IMG/VR virus record: IMGVR_UViG_3300043427_003220
Span: 1-64,000 of that record
Reading direction: 5' to 3' (one strand)
Origin: a virus
Length of the DNA stretch: 64,000 bases
Part shown: positions 2,711 to 49,282 of the stretch, piece after piece
How positions within the stretch are numbered: position 1 is the stretch's first letter
How the letters are laid out: each line of letters begins with the position of its first letter
Position numbers and translations under genes: made by a program
The notes under the pieces: model-generated
The model's input: only the letters and a program-made list of their open reading frames with translations
Databases searched by the model: none
Told to the model about the DNA's origin: nothing

Positions 2711-2737
2711 TAAAGGTTTTTTGCTGACCTCCGATAT
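2711..2737 (+). promoter_or_regulatory. Sigma-28 (FliA)-type promoter, site 1
   Basis: TAAAGGTT at 2711-2718, an 11-nt spacer and TCCGATAT at 2730-2737 match the FliA consensus TAAAGTTT-N11-GCCGATAA at 13 of 16 positions. The site lies 40 nt upstream of the start codon at 2778, after a separate gene run has ended. Confidence 0.6.
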
Positions 2738-2777
2738 GTCTTATGTAAGACAGGAAACTAACACCAAGGAGGCTCCC

Positions 2778-3023
2778 ATGAGTACAGCAGAATTTCTCCA
2801 AAGCTACCTTGAGTCTTTTGAAACACAAGAAGACGGTTACAAAGATAGCCTTTGGGTCAAGGCTATCAAAGTCATGGCTATTCCAGAAGCCATGGAAGTG
2901 ACTGAAGAGTCTCCTGACTCCTTTGACAGCGGCATTAGGCTGCTGTTCAAAGATGGCAGTTGCCTCTACATTGGCAACCCACGCCAGTCAGCCTTCGCGG
3001 GCTTCAGCTATGTGATTGACTGA
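2778..3023 (+). CDS. Hypothetical 81-aa protein
   Basis: The start at ATG 2778 is fixed by a near-perfect ribosome site, AAGGAGG, 5 nt upstream. The frame is open further upstream, but that part overlaps the promoter motif. The product is small, acidic and soluble, with a beta-rich second half (IRLLFKDGSCLYIGNPRQSA). It forms a single-gene unit: a sigma-28-type promoter before it and a strong terminator just after it. No family is recognised. Confidence 0.65.
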   Translation: MSTAEFLQSYLESFETQEDGYKDSLWVKAIKVMAIPEAMEVTEESPDSFDSGIRLLFKDGSCLYIGNPRQSAFAGFSYVID

Positions 3024-3027
3024 CTCC

Positions 3028-3058
3028 AGCCCGCCCAAAAGGCGGGTTTAATTTTTTT
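3028..3058 (+). terminator. Rho-independent terminator
   Basis: The stem CCCGCC/GGCGGG with a 5-nt loop (CAAAA) is followed by TTTAATTTTTTT. It closes the transcript of the gene ending at 3023 and is followed directly by the next sigma-28-type promoter at 3060. Confidence 0.92.
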
Positions 3059-3059
3059 C

Positions 3060-3086
3060 TAAAGTTATTATTCTTAGCTCCGATAA
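3060..3086 (+). promoter_or_regulatory. Sigma-28 (FliA)-type promoter, site 2
   Basis: TAAAGTTA (3060-3067), an 11-nt spacer and TCCGATAA (3079-3086) differ from the FliA consensus at only two of 16 positions. The site starts 2 nt after the terminator at 3028-3058 and 48 nt before the start codon at 3108. Confidence 0.7.
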
Positions 3087-3107
3087 GAATAGTAATGGAG
3101 GTGATGT

Positions 3108-3608
3108 ATGAGAAACAATTGGGCACAAAGACTGGCTTCTGCATTCAAGCACCCTGTTCAAGATTATGTTTTTGTTGAACAGTCTGAAGGTGAGTCTTCA
3201 TGTGCCTGTGGGCACCCCATCAAGAACATCTTCACTGTTGCCTGCAATGGCCACACTGTCCAATTGGGCAGTGAGTGCATTGAGAACTACACTGAGCTTG
3301 AAAGCATTCAGGTTCAAGTCAAGGCCGCTGAAGAGCGCCGCAAAGCAGAAGAGAAGGCTCATCAAGAGCATCTCCAGACCAAAGAACTTGAGTCACTCAT
3401 TAATGAGTACAATGAGCTGCTCAAGCCATTTAAAGAACAAGTCGCCAAGAGACAGCGCATTGATTATATGGTTTGGATGTACTGCGCAGGCAAGAAAGGC
3501 TACTCTATTAAGAAGCTCAAGACCCTCAAGGGCAAGATTAAGGCAGTCCAAACTGCCATCAAAGAACTCAAACTGGCTATCAAACTTGCGCAGGAGGACG
3601 TGGCATGA
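3108..3608 (+). CDS. Hypothetical protein with Cys/His cluster and coiled coil
   Basis: The 166-aa product has an N-terminal Cys/His region at about residues 31-60: CACGHPI, then ACNGHTVQLGSECIENY, plausibly one metal site. A long charged coiled coil follows (about 63-115), then a basic C-terminal helix pair (KKLKTLKGKIKAVQTAIKELK). The start is certain because GGAGGTGAT sits just before ATG. The gene follows a sigma-28-type promoter and overlaps the small membrane protein gene after it by ATGA. Similar short CxCGH...GSxC proteins occur in large phages without known function, so the role is unknown. Confidence 0.7.
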   Translation: MRNNWAQRLASAFKHPVQDYVFVEQSEGESSCACGHPIKNIFTVACNGHTVQLGSECIENYTELESIQVQVKAAEERRKAEEKAHQEHLQTKELESLINEYNELLKPFKEQVAKRQRIDYMVWMYCAGKKGYSIKKLKTLKGKIKAVQTAIKELKLAIKLAQEDVA

Positions 3609-3739
3609 AGATAAATATAGCTATTGCTACGGCAATTGTGATTGGAATGCTGATTCAATTGGCGGCTATAATTGCTTTGGCCGTTTATGCACCGATTTGG
3701 CTTTCCGTTCCTTTGATTGTATTAATGATTGCTTTTTAA
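3605..3739 (+). CDS. Small membrane protein, two transmembrane segments (44 aa)
   Basis: The ATG overlaps the previous stop (ATGA), which implies coupled translation. The 44 residues are almost entirely hydrophobic: INIAIATAIVIGMLIQLAA, a short break, then VYAPIWLSVPLIVLMIAF. That gives two probable inner-membrane helices. The size and topology would suit a holin-like or inhibitory membrane peptide, but nothing specific supports either. The next gene has its own ribosome site overlapping this stop. Confidence 0.6.
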   Translation: MKINIAIATAIVIGMLIQLAAIIALAVYAPIWLSVPLIVLMIAF

Positions 3740-3749
3740 GGAGATTCTT

Positions 3750-4034
3750 ATGCGCTTTACGTATACAACAGATATTATTGGCGGACAGCCGGTAACGACT
3801 ATTCAAGAAACTGCCGGCGTGTTTTCTGGCTATACAGCGGAGCAAGTGGCGGTTGTCGCTGAAAACCTTTATCCAAACTATCAGTCTCGTAATATGTCTA
3901 ATATCTTTTCTGATATTTATTTCAACTATTGCCTCAGAAAGACTCTCGAAGGTCAGCCCATTCCAAATGAATATCTATCTAATAATATTAGACAAAGTGT
4001 AAATGATAGCGATTTGCTCGAAGAAAATGATTGA
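3750..4034 (+). CDS. Hypothetical 94-aa protein
   Basis: The start is ATG 3750 with AAGGAG 6 nt upstream; that site begins in the stop codon of the membrane peptide before it. The product is soluble, with mixed composition and an acidic end (DSDLLEEND). Its middle reads AEQVAVVAENLYPNYQSRN. No motif or family is recognised. It is the last gene of the unit that begins at 3108. Confidence 0.6.
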   Translation: MRFTYTTDIIGGQPVTTIQETAGVFSGYTAEQVAVVAENLYPNYQSRNMSNIFSDIYFNYCLRKTLEGQPIPNEYLSNNIRQSVNDSDLLEEND

Positions 4035-4082
4035 CAGTCGCGCTAATAGCAGATAACTTACCACTTAGGAGGTAGATTTATC

Positions 4083-4373
4083 ATGATTACAGGACTTTTT
4101 GCAGCAGGGCTTTTGGCGATGTTTGTGGGTCTTTCAAGCCGCACTCCAGAGGTAGATAATACCAATACCCAATACTGCGTAGCTGCTCCTACTCGTTCCA
4201 ATCCAAAACAAGAGCGAACAGTCACTATAGATGAGCTAGTTGTTGACTCGCGCTGCCCACAAGGTGCTCAGTGCATTCGTCAAGGCGAACTCAAAGTAGT
4301 TAAGAACTGCTCTAAAGGCACAATGACTACAGAGCCAACCAAATCATCACTATCAGAACGGAAATCAAAATAA
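4083..4373 (+). CDS. Hypothetical exported or membrane-anchored Cys-containing protein
   Basis: The 96-aa product begins with a hydrophobic stretch (MITGLFAAGLLAMFVGLSS) that looks like a signal peptide or anchor. A soluble part with four Cys (YCVAA, SRCPQGAQC, NCSKG) follows, which suits disulfides in the periplasm. The start has the strong site TAGGAGG about 10 nt upstream. The stop overlaps the start of the transglycosylase gene by one base (TAATG), so the two are probably made together and both act outside the cytoplasm. Confidence 0.65.
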   Translation: MITGLFAAGLLAMFVGLSSRTPEVDNTNTQYCVAAPTRSNPKQERTVTIDELVVDSRCPQGAQCIRQGELKVVKNCSKGTMTTEPTKSSLSERKSK

Positions 4374-5281
4374 TGCTAAAGTACATAGCTTTGGCGGCAT
4401 CGGCTCTATCTCTGAGTGCTACAGCACAAGAGGCAATAGAGCTGACTCCGCCAGTGTGTCTACAGCCAAATATTAACTTTTGGCATGACGTATATACAAA
4501 ATATACAAGACACGACATCATTGTTTACAACCAAAAGACAATGGAAGTCTACAACGTCTACCCACGCCCAAAGGGAAGCAAAAAGACAATTAAAAAGTAT
4601 AAAAGACACTTATTACATAAATATGTAAAGCTAATGCCCAAAGAGAAAAAGAACATTGCAGTCAAGACAGGGGCACGAGGCTTCTTTGAGAGAGGCTTTG
4701 AGAGAATGCACGAGCATTACCCCAAGATAGTCAAGAAGCTAGAGCAACAAGGAATGCCACACCAAATAGCCTTCTTGCCGTTCGTAGAGTCTTCGTACTC
4801 CTATAAAGCCACTAGCCCAGTCGGAGCAGTAGGCATGTGGCAAATCATGCCGGCAACAGGCAGACTCTTTGGAATCAAGAAGAGAGCAAGGCTTAGAGAC
4901 AATAAGGTAGCCACCGATGTAGCCATCAAGCTCCTTAAGTTTAATTACGAGATGTTGGGAGATTGGACTTTGGCTATCAATGCCTATCATTCCGGCACCG
5001 GACGACTCTTAAAAGCATCCAACATGGCAAATTCAAAAAACATTTGTGAAATACTCAACTATCTTGACGAAAATGACGTTACTATTAAGGGGTACAAGTT
5101 CTATAGCAGAAACTATGTAGCTCAATTGTTTGCTATTGACAAGGCAGTGACGGAAAGGCTAAACCCTCACGTAGAGGATGAAGCCGAAGAAATAGAAGAG
5201 GGGGTTCAAAATGAGTTTGAAGAGAAAGCTGGAGATGCAACTGGATTTGAGGAGTCCGACAGGGAAGACACTGCACCTTGA
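4373..5281 (+). CDS. MltD-like lytic transglycosylase with signal peptide
   Basis: The 302-aa product cleaves peptidoglycan by the lytic transglycosylase reaction (family function). A signal peptide covers about residues 1-19 (LALAASALSLSATAQ-like core). The SLT/MltD catalytic core spans about 120-250: catalytic Glu139 in LPFVESSYS, GAVGMWQIMPATG (151-163) and AINAYHSGTGRL, the equivalent of the AYNAG motif. The last 40 residues are strongly acidic. No LysM repeats are present, unlike full-length MltD. A signal peptide on a phage transglycosylase points to a role from inside the infected cell at lysis or wall remodelling, rather than a tail-tip enzyme. It overlaps the next gene by 71 nt. Confidence 0.88.
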   Translation: MLKYIALAASALSLSATAQEAIELTPPVCLQPNINFWHDVYTKYTRHDIIVYNQKTMEVYNVYPRPKGSKKTIKKYKRHLLHKYVKLMPKEKKNIAVKTGARGFFERGFERMHEHYPKIVKKLEQQGMPHQIAFLPFVESSYSYKATSPVGAVGMWQIMPATGRLFGIKKRARLRDNKVATDVAIKLLKFNYEMLGDWTLAINAYHSGTGRLLKASNMANSKNICEILNYLDENDVTIKGYKFYSRNYVAQLFAIDKAVTERLNPHVEDEAEEIEEGVQNEFEEKAGDATGFEESDREDTAP

Positions 5282-5615: not shown

Positions 5616-5622
5616 GGCTATT

Positions 5623-6572: not shown

Positions 6573-6685
6573 ATTAACTAGCATAACTTTAACAAAATTG
6601 TTAAGATTCAAGAATATTCAGGTTTTTGCAAAAAATCTGATAAAATCTGTATGTAGCGTTTGGCCACAAAACTAGGAGCCATAAG

Positions 6686-9505
6686 ATGACAATAGCGTTT
6701 TCGGTAGGCGGGTCACGAGTTGTTACCCCCGGTGTTTATTCAGTATTTAAAGTGCAAGATTCATTGCTCAACGTAGTTGCTGCGGCAAGAAATGTTCTTC
6801 TTATTGGCGAAGCTTCCGAAGGCGTCCCTGGAAACTTGCTTGACCCAACAACTGCATTTTTTACTGACTACCCCACAATGCAGGCTTTTTTTACTTCGGG
6901 TTCAGTTGTAGACGCTGCTCGCCAACTCTTTACCGTGCAGCCTTCCGCTGTATTCACTGGTTCCGTTGGCCGCGTTTATGTTCAACAAACTAACCAAGCA
7001 ACTCGCGCAGAAAAAGCAATTGCGTCTCCCTCTGCTTACGGCAAGGTGGTTGCAACTAAGTTTGGCGAGTCAGGAAATTTTGCTAAGTCACAAATTGTGG
7101 CTTCTGCAGAAGCTCTTCCTTCTGTTTCATTTCAAGTTCTTCCTCTTTCTGTAAATATGGAAGCTGCAGTTTCAGGCGTTCAGTCTGCGGGCACCGCTGC
7201 TATGACATTTGCAGGAGTTGAGAGCTTTGCAAGCAACCTTTCAACCCTTTTGGGCGCCAAGGCCACAGTGTCAGGCGGAACTCTTCAAGACGTAGTTCCA
7301 ACTGGTGCTGACCTGACTCTCGCTGTTTCGGGTAATGATGTGGTCGTATCAAGCTCTATTGCTTGGAACAGCCTTCCTAAAACAGGCGAAGTTGCAATCA
7401 TTCCTCACAGCTCTGGCCTTGTAGGTGCTACCGACAAAAATACTGGCACTTATGTTGTTAAGGCTGCCACCTCAACAACTGTAACTCTTGAAAAGGTCCG
7501 TCAAATGGACAACTCAGGAGCTAGCGCAGTTGCTTGGACTGCTCCAGAAGCTGTTTCTACTCCTGTTACAGCAGGTACGGCTCCATTCACATACGCAACT
7601 GGTGAAGTCATCTTTGTTAGCCCAGTTTCCGTTGAAGTTACTGAGGCTGCTAAAGAGGGCGCAGGCGCTTCTCTTGAGTTGGCCGCTGCTTCCGCTTCCC
7701 TCTTGGGAGTTGCTGCCGTTGCTCGTATGTCAGCTCGCTCAAATCTTCTCAACGCAGCCAATGCCTCATTTGGAACCATTTCGGCTGCTGCTTCCGCAGA
7801 CCAACTCACCGTCTCTCTTGGAGCGGGCGCAGTTTGGATTGCAGCCCCAAAGCTAGGCGATGTTGTTTACGTTTCTCCTTCTTCTCCGGTTGCAGGAGCT
7901 TCTAAGCAAAACGTCGGCCTTCATATTGTATTGTCAGCTTCTCCTTCTTCGGTTGTTTGCAAGAGACTTGACGGCGGTTCCGCTGCTTCCGTTTCTTCAA
8001 CTGCCCTTGCTGGAAAAGAAGATGCTTTGCAGGCTCTTCCTGCATTGGTCAGCTCCTCGGTTGCTGCCAAGAAAGCTGTTTCTTCAAAAGAAGCTCAAGT
8101 GTCAATGAATAGCCTCAATACCGTCACTGGAGAGAGATTCCCTTCAGACAAAATCGGCGGAAAGGTTGTCCTTGAAATTTCTTACTCAGGCACAGCAGCG
8201 GCTGCTAAAGTTTCAATCGACACAAGCCGTCGCGTTAAACTTGTTGCCGATACAGATGAGGTTGTACTCCCAACTCTCAAGTACCCAACACTTGCTGCTC
8301 TAGCTGAAAAGATTAGCTCACTCACAGGATGGGCTGCTCGCGTTGTTGATGCTGGAATGAGTTCAGCTTCTCCAGCTGTGTTGGATATGGTTGATGAAGT
8401 TGGTTGCTTGTCACTTACAAGTGAGCACGCATTCTCAGGCCGCCTCAAAAATGACTACTCAGCTTGGACTTCATTCTTTGCTGGTACGGTTTCCATTCTT
8501 GACTTCGTCGCTGGTGCGCGTCCAGTTAAAGCTGGTCTACCTGCGGGCGAATCTTCACAGTCATTCTTGCTTGGTGGAGCTAAAGGCGCTACTTCAAATG
8601 CAGATATTCAAGCTGCTCTTGACGCTGGCCTCAAAGTTCCAACTGTTCAAGTTCTCCCGCTCTTCTCACGCGACGCATATCTTGATGCTGCTGATGGCCT
8701 AACTGAGCAAGAGTCAACTTACTCTATCGACTCAGTCCACGCCGCTCTTAGAGCACACGTTGCTACTGGATGGTCAAGCGCGGTTCGTCGTGAACGCTTT
8801 GGTCTAGCTTCATTCTTCGGCTCGTTCGAGGATTCAAAAGCTAAGGCTCAGGCTATGAACTATGAAAACGTCTCAATGACATTCCAGCTTGCTCGCGCTA
8901 CGGGCGCAGACGGTAATGCTCAGTGGTTCCTTCCATGGATGCTTCAGTGCTGCATGGCTGCAGGACGTTCACAGGCAGTTCTTGGAACTCCTTTGCTTCG
9001 TAAGTCATTCAACGTCCTCGACGTTAAGCACATTCCAGAGTCATCCGTCTACTCTGACACGTTAACACGTGACTTTGACCCCGCAAGCAGAACGATGGTC
9101 GATGAAGCTATCGAAGCTGGCCTTTTGACCATGGGTGTAGTTGAAGGTGCAGGACTCCGCTTGGTGTCTCCAGACCTCTCAACCCGCAGCCGCGTCAATG
9201 ACCCGAAAGCTTGGGTGTATGAGCGCAACAACGTATCGTTTATCTTTATTGAAGTTATCCAAACTCTCAGAAGCGTTCTTGAGAACTACATCGGCGAGCG
9301 TACTACGGACGTTACCACGGCTGAAGTTGCTTCTACAGTTGTCAATGTTCTTTCATCGTTTGTTACTAGCGGCGCAATCGTTGCATTTAATCGCTCACCG
9401 CTCGTAACCAACCTTGGAAATGGCTATGCTGTGCAAGTGCAGGTTCGCCCTGCTGAAGCGCTTGAGTTTATTTCACTTGATGTAACTGCAACGAGAAATC
9501 TTTAA
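6686..9505 (+). CDS. Tail sheath protein (unusually long)
   Basis: The 939-aa product has the two ends of contractile-tail sheath proteins. The N-terminus is SRVVTPGVYSVFKVQD, with RNVLLIGEASEG following. The C-terminal core is RNNVSFIFIEVIQTLRSVL, then RTTDVTTAEVASTVVNVLSSF and a final beta strand that links neighbouring subunits. Most sheaths are 400-700 aa. The excess here is a long Ala, Ser and Val-rich middle (about residues 130-560) that would form extra surface domains. Ribosome site AGGAG lies ahead of ATG. The position directly before tube-like genes fits the role. Energy stored in the extended sheath drives DNA delivery (family knowledge). Confidence 0.88.
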   Translation: MTIAFSVGGSRVVTPGVYSVFKVQDSLLNVVAAARNVLLIGEASEGVPGNLLDPTTAFFTDYPTMQAFFTSGSVVDAARQLFTVQPSAVFTGSVGRVYVQQTNQATRAEKAIASPSAYGKVVATKFGESGNFAKSQIVASAEALPSVSFQVLPLSVNMEAAVSGVQSAGTAAMTFAGVESFASNLSTLLGAKATVSGGTLQDVVPTGADLTLAVSGNDVVVSSSIAWNSLPKTGEVAIIPHSSGLVGATDKNTGTYVVKAATSTTVTLEKVRQMDNSGASAVAWTAPEAVSTPVTAGTAPFTYATGEVIFVSPVSVEVTEAAKEGAGASLELAAASASLLGVAAVARMSARSNLLNAANASFGTISAAASADQLTVSLGAGAVWIAAPKLGDVVYVSPSSPVAGASKQNVGLHIVLSASPSSVVCKRLDGGSAASVSSTALAGKEDALQALPALVSSSVAAKKAVSSKEAQVSMNSLNTVTGERFPSDKIGGKVVLEISYSGTAAAAKVSIDTSRRVKLVADTDEVVLPTLKYPTLAALAEKISSLTGWAARVVDAGMSSASPAVLDMVDEVGCLSLTSEHAFSGRLKNDYSAWTSFFAGTVSILDFVAGARPVKAGLPAGESSQSFLLGGAKGATSNADIQAALDAGLKVPTVQVLPLFSRDAYLDAADGLTEQESTYSIDSVHAALRAHVATGWSSAVRRERFGLASFFGSFEDSKAKAQAMNYENVSMTFQLARATGADGNAQWFLPWMLQCCMAAGRSQAVLGTPLLRKSFNVLDVKHIPESSVYSDTLTRDFDPASRTMVDEAIEAGLLTMGVVEGAGLRLVSPDLSTRSRVNDPKAWVYERNNVSFIFIEVIQTLRSVLENYIGERTTDVTTAEVASTVVNVLSSFVTSGAIVAFNRSPLVTNLGNGYAVQVQVRPAEALEFISLDVTATRNL

Positions 9506-9535: not shown

Positions 9536-9550
9536 ATAATGGAGTCTTAA

Positions 9551-10102: not shown

Positions 10103-10114
10103 AGGTAACTAACG

Positions 10115-19626: not shown

Positions 19627-21183
19627 ATGTCTTACACGTATTTAGACCAAGTAATGACTGACTATCTCGGATATGTTAAGGTATCCAAGAATACTCCGTT
19701 TACACTTGCTGACGTCCAATCTATCGCTATTAATAGATGGGATTGGTTTGTTCAAAATTGGGAACTTAAATTAAATACTGAATTTAAAAGAAAATTACCA
19801 AAATCTGATTTTTTTATTAATCTTCTTAAAGATTTAAATAACGAAATTACAACGCAAAAACTTTTTCCAACGACTAGCACAAATCCTTTTATTAATTTAA
19901 GTAAATTCATTAAATACAAACCAATTTTGTCTTACATTTCTTTATCCGATGTGGCGCTTACTCCATCGGAAAGCCTTGTGCTAAAAGAAGAGCAAAAACG
20001 CTTAGCTAATCTTTCTGTTTTTGATTTTAAAAATATGACCTTTTTTCTTAGAAATAGCGCGTCAACCGCCGCACAGATTGTCGGCCTTGGAGATAACGAC
20101 GGCGCGCTTGTGCAGGGGTTTTCTATTACAACGGCTCAAAGAGGATATGCTGTACAAGAATTAGAGCAAATAAATGATATTTTTGATTTAGCGGACGAAA
20201 TAGACGGAATTATTTATTTTTTGCAGCAAAAAACAGCTCAACAACCAAATTTGCTTGCAGTTGCCAATAGAAATACAGACCCAGATTCTCAAGTTGTATT
20301 CAATCAGTCTTATACCACCGCTATTTCCGTGCCATTTGCTGAATCGCTAGAAAAAATGGCAGAGATATATCTAGGCTCTAAGGATAGGTGGTTTGAGATA
20401 GCTTCCATTAATAACCTACACCCACCCTATGTGGATAGGACCGGCTCTAAAGAATATCTGCTGGGGCCGGGAACATTGGCTTCAATTAAGATATCAGCGA
20501 GCAGAGCCAGTGAAATTAAAGTCGGCACCAAAGTAAAAATTGGTTCGTATACAGTAAGAGAAGAGACTCGCTCAATCTTAAAGATTGTTAAGTTTGAAGA
20601 CGGAACAATGATTCTTTCTCTATCTGGCAATTCGGATTTGGCTAAGCTTAAATTATCAGAAAAACCCTACGTTAAGATTTACAAACCACAAACGGCCAAC
20701 GAAGATTCGCTGCTGCTTGTGCCTGTTACAGCCCAATCGCCTTTAATTCAAGGCAAACAGCCATCTTTAGATGTCCTTAAAAAACTTGATAGGGCTTTGT
20801 TGGATTTTGGCGTCGACGTTCGTAGAGACGAAAAGACCGGAGAAATTCAAATTGGTAAAAATGGTGATTTTGATATTGTATATGGAATGACCGCTGTCCG
20901 TCAGGCTATTCATTCACTAATGTCTACAAATATCAATGAGTTGCCATTTCATCCAAACTATGGCGTACCTTTTGCAAATTCAATCGGAGAAAGATTTTAC
21001 GGTAGCATTGAGCTAGCGGCGGCTTTTTCCGAGGTTTTACAAGAAGTTATACTTTCTGATGGCAGATTTTCAAAAGTTTTTGTGCAAAACTTAACTGTTA
21101 CAGAAACTTCTATTTCCATCAATGTTGTTGTAACAGTTGACGGTTCTAACGTAATAATTCCATTAAGTTTCGTGTCGCAGTAA
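19627..21183 (+). CDS. Baseplate wedge protein with gp25-like C-terminal domain
   Basis: The C-terminal 110 residues of this 518-aa product match the gp25/gpW wedge fold: GDFDIVYGMTAVRQAIHSLM, NELPFHPNYGVPFANSIGE, then an alternating strand end. In other phages gp25 is a separate protein of about 130 aa and forms a structural wedge joint to the sheath. Here it is fused to a roughly 390-aa N-terminal part that includes a possible LysM-like segment (LEKMAEIYLGSKDRWFEIAS, near 240-260). The next gene is the J protein, its usual wedge partner. Confidence 0.78.
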   Translation: MSYTYLDQVMTDYLGYVKVSKNTPFTLADVQSIAINRWDWFVQNWELKLNTEFKRKLPKSDFFINLLKDLNNEITTQKLFPTTSTNPFINLSKFIKYKPILSYISLSDVALTPSESLVLKEEQKRLANLSVFDFKNMTFFLRNSASTAAQIVGLGDNDGALVQGFSITTAQRGYAVQELEQINDIFDLADEIDGIIYFLQQKTAQQPNLLAVANRNTDPDSQVVFNQSYTTAISVPFAESLEKMAEIYLGSKDRWFEIASINNLHPPYVDRTGSKEYLLGPGTLASIKISASRASEIKVGTKVKIGSYTVREETRSILKIVKFEDGTMILSLSGNSDLAKLKLSEKPYVKIYKPQTANEDSLLLVPVTAQSPLIQGKQPSLDVLKKLDRALLDFGVDVRRDEKTGEIQIGKNGDFDIVYGMTAVRQAIHSLMSTNINELPFHPNYGVPFANSIGERFYGSIELAAAFSEVLQEVILSDGRFSKVFVQNLTVTETSISINVVVTVDGSNVIIPLSFVSQ

Positions 21184-21250: not shown

Positions 21251-24200
21251 GTGACAGTTACTATTAAATCAAAAGAACAGCTACTTGGCACTTGGGTCAG
21301 AAGAATCAAGAATAATACAGATATTACTGACTTTCAGGCAGGCGGCGCCCTAGTTACTCTGATGGAGGCGGTAGCCCAGCAAGTTTATCAGGCACAACTT
21401 TCAGTTCTTAAAGTCTTAGAAGTCACGGAAGTAGACAACCTTACAGATAAACGCCTTGATGACCTTGCAGAGTCTCTTAAAATCCCCAATGGGCAAGGTG
21501 GAATTGGCAGACAAGCGGCACTGCAAGCAACTGGCTCGGTAATAATTGGGTCTGCCTTTACAAAAATTTCTACACGCGCTTACGCAGGTAAACCCGCCCC
21601 CTACGCTGGCTCTACCGTTTTGTATGTTCAAGACGCTTCTGAAATGTTTGCTAAGACTCCGGTTAATGGCAAAATCTACATCGGTCGAAATACTGTTGAC
21701 TCCTTTGAAGGTCCACTTTCATATTCTAGTATTTCTTCTACCGGCACCTATTGGATTATTAATCTTATTGACCCCCTTACAAAAGACCATCCTTATACCG
21801 ATGAGATTGTACTTGCTCAAGGCGGTGACAGAACGATTAACGCCTCAACAGTTGTTCAGGTGCCTGCATATTCAGATGCCCCTGCAATTCAATTTACAAC
21901 GGATGCGTCAGTTGTTTTGGCGGACGGCGAAGATTCAGTCACCGTGCCAATTACATGCTCTCAATTTGGCGTTATTGGAAATGTTGCCTCTGGTGCTATC
22001 ACTGAATTTTCCAATCCTCCATTTGCTGGAGCAACGGTTACAAACGATATACCATTTGTAAATGGTTCTGATACGGAATCGGACGCTTCCTTAAGACTAA
22101 GAATCAAAGACTACCCCAACACCTTGGCTCGCGGTACGATTGGTGCAATCAACTCGGCTCTTTTGTCGGTCGTTGATGCTGACACTAAAAAGAAAGTCGT
22201 ATCGGCTTCCGTTATTCGCCCTCTTGAAAAAGGCGAGCCAACAACGGTTTATATTGATGATGGTTCACTATTGGAGCCTGTTTTTGCTGGGCAAGATTAT
22301 GAACTTTTGTTGGCCAGAGCGTCTGGTTTAGAGCAAGGCTTTAGAACCGCTCAGGCTCCTATTACTCCTGCAATTGTAACAGGAGCGCAATCTGCGCCGT
22401 ATGTATTACAAGCTGGAATGTCAATTACTTTTTTGATTGATAATATTCCATACGTTTACACTATTGCCCCGTCAAACTACAAAGACCTCACGGCAGCTAC
22501 AGCTTATGAAGTTGTTCGTGACCTTAACTCAGATGCAGAAGGTATCTTAGACTTTCGTGTAATTGGGAACGGAACGCAAATCGTTGCGATTGACAGAACC
22601 AATGCAGCAGAAGAGATTCGCGTTATTTCTGGAGGTCTGCAGAATGTGCTTGGTTTTCCAACGGTTTCTCAAAGGCCAATCTATCTTTACAAGAACGGCG
22701 TCCTTCAGTCATTTAGAGGCAAAACCGCAACAATTTCTTCAAATCCATTTACTAGTTGGGAAATTACAGGTGCGCCATATACCGGACTTCAGGCAATAAT
22801 TGACGGCGTTACGGTAAATATTGACGATATTACAAATGCTGACTTCTTGTCTCGTTTTGGCGTATCTATGACCGCCGCAACTGCAGACAACTGGAGAGAG
22901 GTGCTGCAGGCAAAAATCCCTGGAGTGACCATAATTTTTCAAGATAATAGATTTATTATTACTTCTAATAAAGAAAACAGTTCTTCAAGCAAAGTTCAAA
23001 TTACTGCAGGAAGTTGGATTGACTCCGCATCTATTTTTCCACTAAATGAAGACGACCGCTTATCTGTAGGCGCTTCAAAAAATTACATATTCAATAGATA
23101 TACAGGCGATATTCGTTTTGTTTCTCGTTTGCAAGCGGGAGATATCGTTGAAGTTGCGTCAGTTAATACACGCGCATTTGTTAAATCTACAACCATCTCA
23201 TCCGGTTTGTATGATTTGTCAAATGACACCCCCGGCTTTGGACAAGCTAAATTTATTGTTTCAGTTGACAGCGAAGTGCAAGTAAAAACCACCGGAAGTA
23301 TTACCGGAGGTTTAATTAAAGTTACTGATGTGGATTCTGCAAACCTTACGGTATCTTTAAAAGATAAGTTGGGTAACGGACTTTTTATCAACGCTGAAGT
23401 AGATGATTATATTTATCTTACGTCAATCAGTTTAGCCCCTTTAGGGTTTTCAAGTATTTCAGAAGAGGTCGCTGGATTCTATAGAATTAAAAAAATAATT
23501 CGCAGCGCTTCTCCGGCAAATGAAGATACAATCGTAATTGAGGTGTCTAGTTATCAAGCTAGCATGTTTATTTTAAATACAGAATATGACACAGCCTATC
23601 TAGGAACGCCTGTTTTTAAAATATTTTCTTCAACCGCAACTCCTCAGTTAATTACACTTACCTCATCCGCTGCGGTAACCGTTGAGGATGTCGCCAATGA
23701 AATAAATTCACAAATAGTCGGTGCTACGGCGGAAAGAAGCACTGGACAATATTTCTTTTTAAGAACAAACACTTACGTGGACGGTTCGCTTTCTATTCTT
23801 GCTGCTTTTGGAAAAGCTAACAATCTATTTGCCGTAGAAAATGGTACAAGTCTGCAGTCCCACGTTGGCTCGTCTTCCTCCGCATTTTTAGATGGAGGAT
23901 TTCCAGTAGTCACGGAAATCGTTGCTCCCTCGTTGCCCTCGGACGGCCATGGTTTTAGAGACTACTTAAAAGTCGCCCCTACTTACACACAAATTACGCA
24001 AACCTCTGTCAATCCAATAGCGGAAGCTGCTTCTTTTATTTCATCATACCCGATTGGATTTCAGGAAACATGGATTACAGGTAAGCTTGCTGGCTGGACA
24101 GGCCGTGTTTATAATACAGAAACTACAGCTCCATTTCAGGGTTTTATGAGAACAGATAGCGCTATTAAGCCTATAGGCGCTATTAATGTTACAACTGAAA

Positions 24201-34555: not shown

Positions 34556-34582
34556 TAAAGTTTCTCCTTGACCCTCCGATAA
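34556..34582 (+). promoter_or_regulatory. Sigma-28 (FliA)-type promoter, site 3
   Basis: TAAAGTTT (34556-34563), an 11-nt spacer and TCCGATAA (34575-34582): 15 of 16 consensus positions. The start codon at 34614 follows, with GGAGG between them. Confidence 0.72.
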
Positions 34583-34613
34583 GACTTATGTAAGTCAACT
34601 ACGGAGGTCTTCC

Positions 34614-34934
34614 ATGAACAATCTTCAAGCCCAAGCCAGAACCTTCATTGAAACTGCAACCAAGCACAAATTCAACATTGTTGCGACCAGCGACACTGTC
34701 ATCAGAATTACGAGAAAGTTTGAAGTAGGTGACCGTCAAGCATTCTGTGAGTGCGACATGATGGCTTCCAGTGTCCTTGATTTGGCTCCCTTGAAGGGCG
34801 GTTCTGTCTGGGGCACTGATGGTGGTTCTATTGGCGGAGCTGTTGCTCTGCAGGATGGCCTATTTGTCATGAATAAGTCTGGTTCAGGCGGAGCACGCTT
34901 CATGCGTGAACTGCGCAAGCAGCTTGGTCAATAG
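34614..34934 (+). CDS. Hypothetical 106-aa protein under a sigma-28-type promoter
   Basis: The product has a beta-rich middle (FNIVATSDTVIRITRKFEVG) and a Gly/Ser-rich region (LKGGSVWGTDGGSIGGAVAL) before a short basic C-terminal helix (RFMRELRKQLG). It has the strong ribosome site CGGAGG. It forms its own unit, with a promoter before it and tandem 10-nt repeats overlapping its stop. No family is recognised. Confidence 0.65.
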   Translation: MNNLQAQARTFIETATKHKFNIVATSDTVIRITRKFEVGDRQAFCECDMMASSVLDLAPLKGGSVWGTDGGSIGGAVALQDGLFVMNKSGSGGARFMRELRKQLGQ

Positions 34935-34986: not shown

Positions 34987-35013
34987 TAAAGTTATTTTTG
35001 AGCGTGACGATAA
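34987..35013 (+). promoter_or_regulatory. Sigma-28 (FliA)-type promoter, site 4
   Basis: TAAAGTTA (34987-34994), an 11-nt spacer and GACGATAA (35006-35013): 14 of 16 consensus positions. The start codon at 35034 follows with GGGGGTGAG between. Confidence 0.68.
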
Positions 35014-35033
35014 GTTATTCATGGGGGTGAGTT

Positions 35034-35237
35034 ATGTACGTAGTGATTATTGACTCTGCAACTGACGGCTGGACTGTAAACCAATCTTTTGAAGCTGAGT
35101 TCTCAACGCTCGGCGAGGCAGAATCCTATGTGCGCACGCTTGAGCGTTGGTCTGCTACTGATAGTCAAAAACAGTTGTGGATTTCTCATGGTCCACAGTT
35201 TAGAATTTTTTGTGAAGAATCAGGCGAATACGTTTAA
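35034..35237 (+). CDS. Hypothetical 67-aa protein
   Basis: This small soluble protein (YVVIIDSATDGWTVNQSFEA, then LGEAESYVRTLERW) has a beta-alpha-beta look. Its start MYVVIIDSATDGW and the later aromatic residues resemble the small proteins at 36522 and 48905, which also open with a beta strand MxVYxI and have a charged helix. It is the first gene of a unit under sigma-28-type promoter 4, with the lipoprotein gene next. Function is unknown. Confidence 0.6.
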   Translation: MYVVIIDSATDGWTVNQSFEAEFSTLGEAESYVRTLERWSATDSQKQLWISHGPQFRIFCEESGEYV

Positions 35238-36134: not shown

Positions 36135-36473
36135 ATGAAACATTTATTTTTATGTGTATTATTGGTTGGTTGTGCGACATCTCCGCAAGTTCCAAATTTG
36201 GCTCCACAACCAACGCCCTCCCCTACCCAAACGCCCAAACGCAAGCCAAAATACAAGGTTGGCGACTGTCTTATGATTGTAGATTTGATTAAAGGCGAAA
36301 CTGAATCTCGCCATAGAGTCAAAATTGAGAAAGTCGGCGTAGATCGTTATTACTACAGATGGCTTCTTGACGACGGACGTTGGGACTCGGAATTATCTGG
36401 CAGCGCTGGCAAATTTGAAGTTTTAGAAAAAATTTCAAAAAAAGTGTTTGACTGCCCTAAAGTTTCACAATAA
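36135..36473 (+). CDS. Predicted lipoprotein 2, proline-rich linker
   Basis: The signal MKHLFLCVLLVGCATS carries lipobox LVGC. A Pro/Thr-rich linker follows (PNLAPQPTPSPTQTPKRKPK), then a compact beta domain of about 70 residues (YKVGDCLMIVDL, HRVKIEKVGVDRYYYRWLLDDG) with two Cys. A linker then small domain is typical of proteins that reach through the periplasm from a lipid anchor; an outer spanin has similar proline content but no such domain. The following promoter overlaps the end of this gene. Confidence 0.68.
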   Translation: MKHLFLCVLLVGCATSPQVPNLAPQPTPSPTQTPKRKPKYKVGDCLMIVDLIKGETESRHRVKIEKVGVDRYYYRWLLDDGRWDSELSGSAGKFEVLEKISKKVFDCPKVSQ

Positions 36474-36484
36474 ACAGTCGATAA
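36458..36484 (+). promoter_or_regulatory. Sigma-28 (FliA)-type promoter, site 5
   Basis: TAAAGTTT (36458-36465, perfect), an 11-nt spacer and GTCGATAA (36477-36484): 15 of 16 consensus positions. The -35 box lies inside the last codons of the lipoprotein gene. The start codon at 36522 follows. Confidence 0.7.
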
Positions 36485-36521
36485 GTCTTACATGAGCAAT
36501 TCAGCTCGTAAAGGAGGCTTT

Positions 36522-36764
36522 ATGCAGGTTTATGTAATTACTTCAGTGGTTAATTCATATGAAGATGTTTCTCCAAATTATGGCGCTGCCAGTGTGTGGT
36601 ACGAAGTGTTTCGTAATAAGGAAGATGCTGTCAACCTTTTGAAAGAATGGGGCTGCGAGCCATTGTCAGACGCAGAAGATACCTTTGCTAGAAAAAAAGA
36701 AAAAGATGGGTGTGTTTACAATTTTTATTACAAAATCAACTCTCAGTTTTTTGCAGGAGCTTAA
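36522..36764 (+). CDS. Hypothetical 80-aa protein
   Basis: The start is ATG 36522 with AAAGGAGG 4 nt upstream. The product opens MQVYVITSVVNSYEDVSPNY and has a charged helix (RNKEDAVNLLKEWG) and aromatic strands (CVYNFYYKINSQFF). The beta-helix-beta layout resembles the small genes at 35034 and 48905, so these may be one family of tiny accessory proteins. Function is unknown. Confidence 0.62.
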   Translation: MQVYVITSVVNSYEDVSPNYGAASVWYEVFRNKEDAVNLLKEWGCEPLSDAEDTFARKKEKDGCVYNFYYKINSQFFAGA

Positions 36765-38298: not shown

Positions 38299-39201
38299 AT
38301 GGATTTCTTTAAGTTTTTGCGAGTCACTGAAGCAGCAGCTATTGCTAGTTCTAAGTGGATTGGCAAGATGGACAAAAATGCAGCAGATGGAGCTGCTGTA
38401 GATGCCATGAGGGCAGAATTTGATTTTATGGATATTCAAGGCGTTGTGGCTATCGGTGAAGGCGAACTCGACGAAGCTCCTATGTTGTACATTGGCGAAA
38501 AGTTAGGGACAGGCCGTGGTGACAAGTATGACATTGCTGTAGACCCACTAGAGGGGACTGAGTTGGTTGCTAAGGGTAAACCCAATGCTATCTCTGTTAT
38601 GGCTGTAGGAGATTGGGGTTGCCTCATGAGAGCGCCTGATTGCTATATGGATAAGATAGTTGTGGGTTCAAACGCTAAAAGTGCTCTAGTAAGTCTATTC
38701 AAGACTCCTGAGCAAAACCTTAAAGCAATTGCCGACACAATGAGGAGGCCAGTCAAAGACCTGACTGTTTGTGTTTTAGATAGGCCAAGACATATTGATT
38801 TGATTAAAGAAATTACCCAATTAGGGGCTAAAATATCACTTATCAGTGACGGCGACGTACTCGCTGCTATTGGTGTGTGTATGGGCAAGTACGATGTGTT
38901 GATGGGTATTGGCGGCGCTCCAGAGGGTGTTGTATCGGCTGCAGCAGTCAAGAGTCTGGGTGGAAGGATTCTAGGACGTTTAGTATTAGATACATCAGAA
39001 CTCAAAGAACGAGCCGCCAAGATGCACAAACGCGAAGATATAGAGTACGATACGGTAGATATGGCTCATGGTGAACATATAGCCTTTATTGCGACGGGAG
39101 TGACAGACTCTTTCTTGTTGAACGGAGTCATCCACAATGAGGTCCATTCAGTTATACTGACTCCAAAAGAAAGAAGATTCATAAAGACAACTTATGGCTA
39201 A
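38299..39201 (+). CDS. glpX: Class II fructose-1,6-bisphosphatase (GlpX-like)
   Basis: The 300-aa enzyme converts fructose-1,6-bisphosphate to fructose-6-phosphate and phosphate; some GlpX enzymes also use sedoheptulose-1,7-bisphosphate. The match to bacterial GlpX (about 336 aa) is end to end. Metal and phosphate residues are kept: Asp30 (NAADGAAV), Glu54 (AIGEGELDEAPMLYIGE), Asp82 and Glu85 (AVDPLEGT), ISDGDV, and Glu209 (GIGGAPEGVVSAA). Only a short loop and the extreme C-terminus are missing, so it is probably active. It overlaps the large terminase start by 8 nt, so it is expressed with packaging genes. This is an auxiliary metabolic gene that would steer carbon to hexose and pentose phosphates for nucleotide synthesis (inference). 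Confidence 0.93.
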   Translation: MDFFKFLRVTEAAAIASSKWIGKMDKNAADGAAVDAMRAEFDFMDIQGVVAIGEGELDEAPMLYIGEKLGTGRGDKYDIAVDPLEGTELVAKGKPNAISVMAVGDWGCLMRAPDCYMDKIVVGSNAKSALVSLFKTPEQNLKAIADTMRRPVKDLTVCVLDRPRHIDLIKEITQLGAKISLISDGDVLAAIGVCMGKYDVLMGIGGAPEGVVSAAAVKSLGGRILGRLVLDTSELKERAAKMHKREDIEYDTVDMAHGEHIAFIATGVTDSFLLNGVIHNEVHSVILTPKERRFIKTTYG

Positions 39202-41476: not shown

Positions 41477-41809
41477 ATGATTGGCCACGTAAAAGATGTA
41501 ATTAAGGGAAAAGCTAAGCTTTTTTCAAAGCGTTCTTCTAGGTGGCCATCATTACGCAAATCTTATTTAGAGACTAATAACTCATGTGCAGCTTGCGGCT
41601 GCACAGAGTTTTTAGAAGTGCATCACATTGAACCGTTTCATGAAAATCCTTCCTTAGAGCTAGAAGCAAGTAATCTTATTACGCTGTGCGACAAACCTGG
41701 CAAAGATAATTGTCATCTTGAGATTGGCCATCTTGGCAGCTTTAAGAGCAAAAATCCGAATGTTCGAGAAGATGCAGCCAAAGCCCTTCAAGAAAAAATT
41801 AAAGAATAA
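41477..41809 (+). CDS. HNH endonuclease
   Basis: The 110-aa nuclease has a complete HNH fold: structural zinc Cys37/Cys40 (CAACG) and Cys71/Cys79 (LCDK, NCHLE), catalytic His49-His50 in FLEVHHIEP, Asn66 in ASNLITLC and His80. It starts 3 nt after the previous gene. HNH proteins encoded beside the terminase and portal assist terminase cutting in several phages (HK97 gp74 type). A free-standing homing nuclease is the alternative, but the compact operon position favours packaging. Confidence 0.88.
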   Translation: MIGHVKDVIKGKAKLFSKRSSRWPSLRKSYLETNNSCAACGCTEFLEVHHIEPFHENPSLELEASNLITLCDKPGKDNCHLEIGHLGSFKSKNPNVREDAAKALQEKIKE

Positions 41810-41826
41810 ATTCCACAGTCCGATGA
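41800..41826 (+). promoter_or_regulatory. Sigma-28 (FliA)-type promoter, site 6
   Basis: TAAAGAAT (41800-41807), an 11-nt spacer and TCCGATGA (41819-41826): 12 of 16 positions, one of the two weakest of the set. It overlaps the HNH stop codon and precedes the membrane peptide at 41847. Confidence 0.5.
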
Positions 41827-41846
41827 GAAACTCATGGGGGTGGACT

Positions 41847-41951
41847 ATGAACCTTATTTTAAGTGCAATTGTTGTTTTTGTTGGTTATTGCATGATTAAA
41901 ATTGGTCTTTTTTGGATTGGATTGCTTATGTGGATTTTAAATTTGCTGTAA
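41847..41951 (+). CDS. Small membrane protein (34 aa)
   Basis: ATG 41847 follows GGGGGTGG by 3 nt. The peptide (NLILSAIVVFVGYCMIKIG, then LFWIGLLMWILNLL) is hydrophobic along its whole length, giving one long or two short membrane helices. It sits alone after a sigma-28-type promoter. Other small membrane peptides in the window (3605, 36766, 57386) show the same pattern of tiny gene plus good ribosome site. Confidence 0.6.
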   Translation: MNLILSAIVVFVGYCMIKIGLFWIGLLMWILNLL

Positions 41952-42310: not shown

Positions 42311-42334
42311 GTCGAAGACTATAGGAGTTTTCGC

Positions 42335-43315: not shown

Positions 43316-43330
43316 TAATAGGAAATTTCA

Positions 43331-45325: not shown

Positions 45326-45326
45326 T

Positions 45327-45354
45327 TAAAGTTCGTTCCCGTGTGTTCCGATAA
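45327..45354 (+). promoter_or_regulatory. Sigma-28 (FliA)-type promoter, site 7
   Basis: TAAAGTTC (45327-45334), a 12-nt spacer and TCCGATAA (45347-45354): 14 of 16 positions, with a spacer one base longer than consensus. It lies right after the portal stop, 21 nt before the start at 45376. Confidence 0.6.
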
Positions 45355-45375
45355 TTGTACTTGGAGGTACCCGTT

Positions 45376-45675
45376 ATGAGTAAAGCAGTAGAAGCAAGAG
45401 AACTAGCAGACAAGTTTAATGACCCTGAGCAAAAAGACAAAAGATTGCAGGGTCTTATGGATTTTATTGTTGATATTCTTTTGGAAGATGCTATTAATGC
45501 TGCTAAGCGCGGTCTTTATGACATGTCTTACAAAATGGGTGACATGGAAAAAGAGCGTATCCGTCTTGCTAACCTCCAAGAAGAAGAAGTTACTAAAAAA
45601 GTAATTGATAAGATGAATCAGCTTGGATTTCAGGCTGGTTTTAGCCGTCCCTACATCAACGTCTCATGGAAATAA
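45376..45675 (+). CDS. Hypothetical 99-aa helical protein
   Basis: The start is ATG 45376 with GGAGG 7 nt upstream. The product is helical and charged (FNDPEQKDKRLQGLMDFIVD, then MEKERIRLANLQEEEVTKKV) and ends SRPYINVSWK. It forms a three-gene unit with the next two genes, which follow with overlap or near-contact. No family is recognised. Confidence 0.62.
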   Translation: MSKAVEARELADKFNDPEQKDKRLQGLMDFIVDILLEDAINAAKRGLYDMSYKMGDMEKERIRLANLQEEEVTKKVIDKMNQLGFQAGFSRPYINVSWK

Positions 45676-45902: not shown

Positions 45903-45904
45903 TT

Positions 45905-46366: not shown

Positions 46367-46397
46367 CTGAAAATATACTTTTCTTTATGGTGTTTAA

Positions 46398-47009: not shown

Positions 47010-47011
47010 TT

Positions 47012-47254: not shown

Positions 47255-47262
47255 GAGTCAGT

Positions 47263-47290
47263 TGCCGAGGATTCCTCGGTAGCTTATTTT
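47263..47290 (+). terminator. Possible weak terminator hairpin
   Basis: CCGAGG and CCTCGG pair around ATT (47265-47279), with a G-U and a T-A pair extending the stem. The following sequence TAGCTTATTTTG has only a short T-run. It separates the lipoprotein gene from the next start, so partial termination or mRNA end protection is possible. Confidence 0.35.
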
Positions 47291-47305
47291 GAATGGGGGA
47301 TAATT

Positions 47306-47659
47306 ATGACTGAATCTAACTACATGAAATATCGAGGAAAATGCAAAGAAATGGCAGAACAGGCTGCTGCCGAAGACCCCTCGCTTACAGTAGTGCGCGG
47401 TCATTATTATTGTCCACTATGGAACCGCCGCGAACCTCACTGGTGGTGCGTCAAACCAGATGGCGAAATTGTTGACCCCACAGCCCTTCAGTTTCCTTCA
47501 GGTGGCCTTGGAATTGGCGAATACGAGCCGTTTTATGGTTACTTGGCCTGCGAAGAATGCGGAAAGACCATTCACGAAGACGAGCGCCATGCGGGTTATT
47601 CTGTTTGCAGCTATGAGTGCTATGGCAGCATGGTCGGATTGTTGCGGAGAAGTTTATGA
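47306..47659 (+). CDS. Hypothetical phage protein with zinc ribbon
   Basis: The 117-aa product reads YMKYRGKCKEMAEQAAAEDP, VVRGHYYCPLWNRREPHWWC, VKPDGEIVDPTALQFPSG, then a terminal zinc ribbon (CEECGKTI ... CSYECYG). This combination of RGKCKE, RGHYYCP-W, HWWCVKPDG and zinc ribbon is common in unnamed proteins of many tailed phages. The WWxVxxDGxIxDPTA phrase suggests a small enzyme-like or binding fold. Function is unknown. It overlaps the next gene by ATGA. Confidence 0.72.
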   Translation: MTESNYMKYRGKCKEMAEQAAAEDPSLTVVRGHYYCPLWNRREPHWWCVKPDGEIVDPTALQFPSGGLGIGEYEPFYGYLACEECGKTIHEDERHAGYSVCSYECYGSMVGLLRRSL

Positions 47660-48060
47660 ATAGCCTTGAACAACTACAACAAATTAAAGAATTAGCCCTC
47701 AATCTTTTTGATGGCGAATATGCAGCAAATGAATGGCTAAACACGCCAAATCATTTGTTTTTTGACAAAACGCCTCTTGAATATGCCAATAGTGTAAACG
47801 CCCAAAGTGTTATTGACGTGCTAAAAGAATGGTCTGAAGAGCCTAGCTATCCAACTTTTGACGAGCTAAAAGCGTGGCTAGACATAAAGACTGAACATCT
47901 TGACCCAGAAGACCTCAAGATTGTTGACTCGTGTTTTGAGCGAGCCGGTAAATATGGCTTAGAGTGGGAGATTATTTACACCATTCATCGTTCTTACAAC
48001 GATGAGAGCTTTAACGTCGTTGAATATTTGCTAGATGCTTGTGATGATTGGGATATATGA
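47656..48060 (+). CDS. Protein with MbcA/ParS/Xre-type antitoxin-like domain (DUF2384-like)
   Basis: The start is ATG 47656, overlapping the previous stop. Residues about 22-60 (AANEWLNTPNHLFFDKTPLE, then YANSVNAQSVIDVLKEW) match the DUF2384 pattern: A-x2-WL-x-T-P-N, x4, TPLE-x-A, then V-x2-L. In bacteria that domain binds RES or MbcT toxins and is usually preceded by an Xre helix-turn-helix, absent here. The C-terminal 70 residues are acidic and unrecognised. No toxin gene lies nearby. It could neutralise a host toxin-antitoxin defence (speculation). Confidence 0.6.
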   Translation: MNSLEQLQQIKELALNLFDGEYAANEWLNTPNHLFFDKTPLEYANSVNAQSVIDVLKEWSEEPSYPTFDELKAWLDIKTEHLDPEDLKIVDSCFERAGKYGLEWEIIYTIHRSYNDESFNVVEYLLDACDDWDI

Positions 48061-48323
48061 GTATTCAAAAACTTAAAGAACATATTGAAAATTTTATGAA
48101 TAAAAAGCGTGAATTTAATGAGTTTAAGTTTACGTGTAAAGACGATAGGCATTCACTCGGAGTTTACCTAACTATTTGGAATCGTTACGGTCATTTTGTG
48201 TATCATTATTTTAGTTTGGAAATATGCAAACAGTTTTCTGGTTCAGAAGATTTTATTATTGAATATGGATGCACACAAGCAATTCGTCTTTTAAACAGGG
48301 ATTATTATGAGGGGAACTTTTAA
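48057..48323 (+). CDS. Hypothetical 88-aa protein
   Basis: The ATG overlaps the previous stop (ATGA). The product is a small alpha/beta protein (IQKLKEHIENFMNKKREFNE, then LGVYLTIWNRYGHFVYHYFS) rich in aromatic residues. No family is recognised. It directly abuts the next gene without a gap. Confidence 0.58.
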   Translation: MSIQKLKEHIENFMNKKREFNEFKFTCKDDRHSLGVYLTIWNRYGHFVYHYFSLEICKQFSGSEDFIIEYGCTQAIRLLNRDYYEGNF

Positions 48324-48563
48324 ATGAAACTCGAAGTTGGCAAAAAATACCAAGATAGCCAAAATAGAGTTATTAAGATTATTTCAGATGTAGCCAGCCT
48401 TCCATTTTGCTACATAGGGGAAGTTCTATTTACTGGCGAGCTTGCAAGGTACTCACACGATGGAACGATTTATGGTTCTAATGACATTAATCTTGTAAAA
48501 GAACTCGGTACGACTCAGAAGATGGATTGCCTGCAAGACCAAAGCGCACGATTGTACACCTGA
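48324..48563 (+). CDS. Hypothetical small beta protein (MKLExGKKY type)
   Basis: The 79-aa product begins MKLEVGKKYQDSQNRVIKII and has LFTGELARYSHDGTIYGSND, a beta-rich pattern I associate with small unnamed phage proteins. The last 14 residues (KMDCLQDQSARLYT) look unlike the rest and run across a region where another frame has better coding character (see 48569). A frameshift joining the two is possible. Confidence 0.55.
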   Translation: MKLEVGKKYQDSQNRVIKIISDVASLPFCYIGEVLFTGELARYSHDGTIYGSNDINLVKELGTTQKMDCLQDQSARLYT

Positions 48564-48568
48564 CGGAA

Positions 48569-48676
48569 ATGGGCAGTCACATTTATGTCCTTAGTACCGA
48601 TGGAAAGTTATTTCGTAATCATTGGGCAACACCGCAAGAATGGCAAGCACTTCCAGACTTGCCGCAGGAGGACTAA
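48569..48676 (+). CDS. Short 35-aa reading frame, possibly the shifted end of the previous gene
   Basis: ATG 48569 lies 6 nt after the previous stop. The product is GSHIYVLSTDGKLFRNHWAT, then PQEWQALPDLPQED. The YVLSTDGKLF...W..LP.LP pattern is typical of small phage proteins, so this frame looks real even though it is short. The frame is open upstream from about 48492, inside the gene before. It may be a separate small gene, or the original C-terminus separated by a frameshift. Confidence 0.45.
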   Translation: MGSHIYVLSTDGKLFRNHWATPQEWQALPDLPQED

Positions 48677-48677
48677 T

Positions 48678-48908
48678 ATGAGACGCAGTTTCACACTACT
48701 CCGTAGTGACTACCTTTATCACTGCCTGTTCACCGACGAGTTCAACACTCCAGAAGATAAGATTGACCAGCAGATAGAGGACGTTATCAAGAATGAGGCG
48801 GAAATATGGGAGTGGGCGGAGTACGAGTGGACTAAGCATAAGATTGTCAGTGAGTTTATGGAGCCAAAGATTACCTATTACATCGTGGAAGTGAGGGAGA
48901 AAAGATGA
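48678..48908 (+). CDS. Hypothetical 76-aa acidic protein
   Basis: The start is ATG 48678 with AGGAGG 6 nt upstream; the frame is open further upstream but that part is not needed. The product is acidic and helical (PEDKIDQQIEDVIKNEAEIW, EWAEYEWTKHKIVSEF), with many aromatic residues. It overlaps the next gene by ATGA. No family is recognised. Confidence 0.6.
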   Translation: MRRSFTLLRSDYLYHCLFTDEFNTPEDKIDQQIEDVIKNEAEIWEWAEYEWTKHKIVSEFMEPKITYYIVEVREKR

Positions 48909-49090
48909 AAGTCTACGCAATTGTTGAAAATTCTGGCCCATTTACTGTCCTTCTTCATTTGACTGTTTATCGCACAGAAGAGCAGGCTCAAGAGGCCCTT
49001 GAACAAATCAATAAAGATTACGTAGAGTGGTCAAAAGATACAGAATTTGTTTCTAAAGCAAAAGTTATTGAGTTAGAAGTTGCGGACTAA
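48905..49090 (+). CDS. Hypothetical 61-aa protein
   Basis: This gene is coupled to the previous one by ATGA. It reads KVYAIVENSGPFTVLLHLTV, YRTEEQAQEALEQINKDYVE, with a beta-helix-beta layout similar to the tiny proteins at 35034 and 36522. The sigma-28-type promoter 8 overlaps its stop codon. Function is unknown. Confidence 0.6.
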   Translation: MKVYAIVENSGPFTVLLHLTVYRTEEQAQEALEQINKDYVEWSKDTEFVSKAKVIELEVAD

Positions 49091-49114
49091 AGTTTTTCCT
49101 TGTCCTGCCGATAA
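49088..49114 (+). promoter_or_regulatory. Sigma-28 (FliA) promoter, exact consensus, site 8
   Basis: TAAAGTTT (49088-49095), an 11-nt spacer and GCCGATAA (49107-49114): 16 of 16 positions of the FliA consensus with the ideal spacer. The nearest good start codon is 190 nt downstream (49304), and a second such site lies at 49255, so this promoter may make a leader or a small RNA. Confidence 0.8.
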
Positions 49115-49254
49115 GCCTTATGTTATGAGTGAGAATTATGAGTCTTGTCCACTATAGACAAACTACTTTGCCTATAATAAAAGCCACTTTCACTATAAAC
49201 AAATTTCATACTCATGAAATTTAGATTACGAACTAATGAAATTATGACTCTTTA
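49115..49254 (+). other. Non-coding leader between two sigma-28-type promoters
   Basis: This AT-rich segment has no convincing gene. It holds a dyad (ATTTCAT and ATGAAAT around ACTC, near 49203-49220) and two similar stretches, CACTATAGACAAAC at 49150 and CACTATAAACAAAT at 49191, 41 nt apart. It would be the start of the transcript from promoter 8, and might be an untranslated leader, a small RNA or a regulator-binding region. Confidence 0.4.
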
Positions 49255-49282
49255 TAAAGTTTTATCAATAAGAATCCGATAA
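49255..49282 (+). promoter_or_regulatory. Sigma-28 (FliA)-type promoter, site 9
   Basis: TAAAGTTT (49255-49262, perfect), a 12-nt spacer and TCCGATAA (49275-49282): 15 of 16 positions, spacer one base long. It precedes the start at 49304 with AAGGGGG between. Confidence 0.65.

Follow-up and report, generated by a model that had tools for sequence, protein, structure and literature searches.

Flagellar-type promoters precede small genes in a large environmental phage and recur in unrelated uncultured phages

A large environmental phage carries about eighteen copies of the promoter type that bacteria use to switch on flagellum genes (sigma-28, FliA/SigD class), most of them placed in front of small phage genes, and many unrelated uncultured phages have the same arrangement. 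This suggests that these phages time part of their gene expression by the swimming state of their host. No sigma gene was found in the nearly complete phage genome, and host FliA is the best-supported reader of the sites, although its involvement is inferred from sequence alone.

The sites were first noticed in a window of 64,000 nucleotides, which is the first 64 kb of an IMG/VR virus record of 162,747 bp (hereafter G000). The whole record was read on both strands. A relative, G006 (122 kb, about 75% identical and collinear), runs straight from the ortholog of G000 position 161,024 to that of position 930, indicating that the G000 contig closes on itself and is nearly complete; it breaks in a tandem set of three related tail-collar genes. 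No near-identical phage or close relative was found among isolated phages. The closest isolate is Myxococcus phage Mx1 (OR576727), with which, as with related large myophages, G000 shares a core of DNA polymerase III alpha, ribonucleotide reductase (54-57% identity), terminase, portal, sheath, baseplate and GroEL-like protein; the tail sheath and baseplate genes imply a contractile tail.

Given that the first-pass annotation had listed nine sigma-28-type promoters in the window, we first tested whether these sites are real. The observation held: all nine are present at the positions given (Table 1). The site at 49088 matches the consensus TAAAGTTT-N11-GCCGATAA at all 16 specified bases, and the window contains 8 matches at up to 3 mismatches against a shuffled mean of 1.09 (maximum 5). 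The spacer is 11 nt in seven sites, and 12 nt in those at 45327 and 49255. Eight of the nine lie 19-40 nt, measured from the end of the -10 box, before an SD-preceded start, whereas 49088 is 189 nt away, in tandem with 49255 before the same gene. We next examined the whole record. The strict form TAAAG-N16/17-CGATAA occurs 17 times, against a mean of 0.31 and a maximum of 2 in 100 dinucleotide shuffles, although three or four of the 17 are probably chance matches. Twelve of the 17 do not overlap a called gene at all, although 90% of the genome is coding. A matrix made from the nine sites showed about eighteen promoter-like sites, nine of them new: 57547(-) within the window, and 65762, 68584(-), 69661(-), 111936(-), 136385, 154791, 155196 and 158172 outside it. 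The strict matches typically lie about 21 nt before a start codon with a strong ribosome site. In ten sites the -10 box ends 18-21 nt before the start codon, which leaves room for a transcript start and one ribosome site. Two points of the first-pass annotation needed correction. Not every gene behind a site is a small unknown, since 136385 precedes a 482-aa gene with a weak PHROG match to replication initiation, and the weakest listed sites (2711 and 41800) are supported mainly by conservation in relatives.

Table 1. Sigma-28-type sites and adjoining genes in the 64-kb window, with one example of the second promoter class. G001, G003, G006 and G066 are contigs of related phages.
Position	Strand	Feature	Observation
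2711..2738	+	sigma-28-type promoter, spacer 11 (TAAAGGTT..TCCGATATG)	gene start 2778; position conserved in G003
2778..3023	+	81-aa protein of unknown function downstream of 2711	no Pfam or PHROG match
3060..3087	+	sigma-28-type promoter, spacer 11	orthologous site in G006, boxes 15/17 and spacer 4/11 conserved
3108..3608	+	166-aa conserved protein of unknown function	start 21 nt after the -10 box; no significant Pfam match
34556..34583	+	sigma-28-type promoter, spacer 11	followed by the inverted repeat GACTTATGTAAGTC; same promoter but a different downstream gene in G006
34614..34934	+	106-aa protein of unknown function downstream of 34556	
34987..35014	+	sigma-28-type promoter, spacer 11	conserved in G001 and G066
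35034..35237	+	67-aa protein of unknown function downstream of 34987	
36458..36485	+	sigma-28-type promoter, spacer 11	begins inside the end of the preceding gene; present in G001 and G066
36522..36764	+	80-aa protein of unknown function downstream of 36458	
41800..41827	+	weak sigma-28-type promoter (TAAAGAAT..TCCGATGAG)	stronger versions at the orthologous place in G001 and G066
41847..41951	+	34-aa hydrophobic peptide downstream of 41800	
45327..45355	+	sigma-28-type promoter, spacer 12	ortholog in G006, boxes 15/17 and spacer 1/12 conserved
45376..45675	+	99-aa protein with a weak match to a divergent DnaB-like ATPase segment	match below the curated cut-off; protein at this locus 78% identical in G006
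49088..49115	+	perfect sigma-28 consensus site, upstream member of a tandem pair	0 mismatches; kept in G001
49255..49283	+	sigma-28-type promoter, spacer 12, downstream member of the tandem pair	conserved in G001 and G066
49304..49474	+	56-aa protein of unknown function downstream of 49088/49255	
57519..57547	-	additional sigma-28-type promoter, spacer 12, not in the first-pass list	ortholog in G006
57386..57499	-	37-aa hydrophobic peptide downstream of the 57547 site	
6641..6646	+	TAAAAT of the second promoter class	upstream of the sheath-like gene 6686-9505; sheath assignment from similarity to the Mx1 sheath

To determine whether the boxes are under constraint, we compared 16 pairs of related sites from five related contigs (G001, G003, G004, G006 and G000 itself). 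The boxes were identical at 248 of 272 positions (91%) and the spacers at 86 of 178 (48%). Some of these pairs are not strict orthologs, because the downstream gene has been exchanged. Such exchange raises the alternative that the motif is not a promoter but a mobile or recombination element carrying accessory gene cassettes: at 34556 and 158172, promoter and flank are kept in G006 while the downstream gene differs, and promoter-leader blocks of 60-80 bp cross-match between loci. However, it is mainly the two boxes that are conserved and less so the spacer, and unrelated phages share the boxes but not the surrounding sequence. We consider this alternative very unlikely, and cassette exchange is in any case compatible with the sites also being promoters.

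We then investigated whether the motif is used by cells. An extended phage-derived pattern (TAAAGTTT-N11-KCCGATAAG-NN-TTANGTAAS) was scanned over 84,980 species genomes and hit only two, both Ruminiclostridium MAGs. In one of these it lies about 220 nt upstream of an SD-preceded ATG; the first 32 residues of this reading frame were too short for a Pfam match, but a PDB search returned flagellin N-termini as the only significant hits. The motif therefore has the properties of a sigma-28 promoter and not merely a resemblance to it, although this is one case, judged by position only, in an organism not known to be the phage's host. The phage sites agree with bacterial sigma-28 promoters in both boxes, spacing, strand and position before SD starts. 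They differ in lying in phages, before small phage genes and not flagellar genes, and in that box 2 is often TCCGATAAG or G[AT]CGATAAG in this phage.

Of the two readers proposed in the first-pass annotation, host FliA or a phage sigma encoded outside the window, the second was assessed by profile searches. No FliA/WhiG, Sigma70_r2, Sigma70_r4 or phage-sigma (phrog_351) match was found in G000. Mx1 carries a putative sigma, a homolog of which is common in the clade, but HMMER returned no homolog in G000, and hhalign with a 12-member profile against G000 proteins of at least 90 aa gave a best probability of 12%, over 27 residues. The candidate at the same place beside the helicase (window positions 52958-53881) is probably a glycosyltransferase family 9 protein and not a sigma. 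In addition, the Mx1-type sigma does not track the motif. Among the related contigs, motif-rich G012 and G083 have both (10 and 15 strict sites), whereas Mx1, G068, G069, G072, G073, G076, G078, G079, G081, G084 and G094 have the sigma and zero or one match (none in Mx1), and G000, G006, G066, G016, G021, G029, G034 and G048 have the motif and no detectable sigma, although several of these contigs are fragments. The alignment of the Mx1 and G012 proteins ends at a region-4.1-like segment, so from our reading of the sequence this sigma appears to lack a -35 reader. The cellular flagellin-associated match also speaks against a phage sigma whose resemblance to FliA is convergent or ancestral. A very divergent sigma among the many G000 proteins without a family match cannot be excluded by sequence profiles, but we regard a phage-encoded reader as unlikely.

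Herein, we also investigated whether the feature is peculiar to this phage, and this was not supported. The perfect core plus G was found in 93 IMG/VR stretches, against 5 for the reversed pattern. In 50 of these contigs, some of which may be fragments of bacterial or prophage DNA, a relaxed pattern has over 100 matches against no match of the control; since these contigs were chosen for having a site, the second and later sites are the informative ones. Several lineages (G020, G038, G045, G025 and G018) share few or no proteins with G000. In 15 phage contigs, 80 of 109 strict sites are followed within 60 nt by an SD start and an ORF, against 11% of random positions, while about a quarter have no evident start codon within that distance. 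In G021/G029-type phages, a site precedes an RIIA-like gene. A blastn search for the promoter in isolated phages gave only chance 18-base matches. Literature searches, which did not reach many subscription papers, found no phage described with a FliA promoter set.

Collectively, this evidence leads us to favor, with a probability of roughly 0.74, the view that the sites are genuine sigma-28 promoters read by host RNA polymerase carrying the flagellar sigma factor. The interpretation given with the first-pass list is thus supported in part: sigma-28-type promoters for accessory genes, with virion genes left to another motif, are upheld and host FliA is the favored reader, whereas dependence on FliA or on the motile state is an inference. 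In this view, mostly monocistronic mRNAs with very short leaders (about 10-30 nt, little more than a ribosome site) would be made after infection for some eighteen small accessory genes, including one replication-type gene, and coupling to FliA would restrict or boost this gene set in cells in their flagellated or dispersal state. Our analysis demonstrates the motif, its spacing and position, the conservation of its boxes, the absence of a recognisable phage sigma and the recurrence in unrelated phages; recognition by host FliA, the transcript starts, the timing and the physiological consequence are inferred. Phages are known to use the host housekeeping sigma or to bring their own. In phage sigma-factor cascades such as those of SPO1 gp28 or T4 gp55, separate promoter classes also serve different gene sets, but there the phage supplies the sigma, whereas here none was found and the motif is a host flagellar one. 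A phage-wide set of flagellar-class promoters, recurring in unrelated phages and absent from the closest relative isolated on Myxococcus, would mean that phages read a host life-style switch through an alternative sigma. It gives a sequence signature for finding phages tied to motile hosts, and predicts that deletion of fliA or of the anti-sigma gene flgM changes infection outcome.

We sought indications of the host. G000 has no tRNAs, and its GlpX homologs, at about 45-50% identity to many taxa, were uninformative. In Bdellovibrio bacteriovorus, FliA drives most attack-phase promoters, with TTAAG-N16-CCGATA at 92 of 140 and many of the controlled genes non-flagellar (PMC3627812); this is a cellular regulon, but it would make such predators natural hosts. 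The primase of G018, a sigma-28-site phage of another lineage, has its nearest isolated relative in Bdellovibrio phage phi1422. However, phi1422, the one Bdellovibrio phage examined, lacks the sites, so a FliA-rich host does not force their use, and nothing ties G000 to such a host; a Bdellovibrio-like predator is a possible but unproven host. No paper was found on Bdellovibrio phage MAC3UK. It is tentatively conceivable, though less likely than not, that several unrelated lineages of environmental phages have independently adopted their hosts' FliA for early or accessory genes, because these hosts (for example Bdellovibrio-like predators in attack phase, or other dispersing swimmers) meet phages mainly in a state in which FliA is the dominant alternative sigma, infection thereby being tied to the swimming phase of the host life cycle.

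Finally, we examined the upstream regions of the virion genes. The sheath-like gene at 6686, the baseplate gene at 21251, the fibre-like genes at 57604 and 83345, the capsid gene at 158790 and the protease gene at 55419 are preceded by TAAAAT, often as GATAAAAT or GTAAAAT, 30-80 nt upstream, with no recognisable -35, and have no FliA site of their own. This class would probably be transcribed later, an order in time that is inferred. The different -10-like motif of the virion genes also speaks against the possibility that the CGATAA box is a variant -10 read mainly by the housekeeping sigma-70 or another host sigma, the FliA resemblance being partly incidental. Sigma-70 can tolerate variant -10 boxes, but both boxes and the 11-12 nt spacing are constrained together, and sigma-70-type sites in this region are no more common than in shuffles (36 against 35.2), making this reading improbable. 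The site at 57547 points away from the fibre-like gene.

A second recurrent motif, GATAAAAT or GTAAAAT, was found 30-80 nt before virion genes and not on FliA-controlled genes, and it represents a candidate late promoter class. Comparison of the phage record (G000) with its relative G006 showed that the promoter and leader can be kept while the downstream small gene differs, indicating that promoter-gene cassettes appear to be exchanged.

Three related tail-collar-domain genes of about 262 aa across the two contig ends are probably the repeat that broke the assembly; contig G012 has a related gene. A class II fructose-1,6-bisphosphatase gene (GlpX, Pfam E 1.6e-111), with no close phage homolog, lies directly upstream of the large terminase gene. 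In addition, Pfam assignments of the proteins of alignments A2 and A3 pointed to unusual phage genes, namely deoxyhypusine synthase-like, GroEL-like chaperonin, SIS-domain, alliinase C-terminal and Mom-like genes, and two deoxycytidylate deaminases.

A sigma-like protein common in the Mx1 clade appears to end before region 4.2, and it may therefore need a partner for promoter recognition. In the related contig G034, a FliA-type site precedes a response-regulator-like protein.

Coordinates of the additional features (L numbers designate individual sequence stretches)
Sequence	Position	Feature
Window	6641, 10826, 21213, 42305, 50651, 55386, 57557	second motif
L005, L008		second motif
Window	38299-39201	GlpX
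Window; L008	114-905; 17081-18694	tail-collar-domain genes
L004, L006, L007, L008		unusual phage genes
L032; L145	15710-16702; 2071-3078	sigma-like protein
Window; G006	34556; 93288	promoter and leader kept, downstream gene different
G000; G006	158172; 52848	promoter and leader kept, downstream gene different
G034 (L184/L185)	about 19,800-20,214	FliA-type site and response-regulator-like protein
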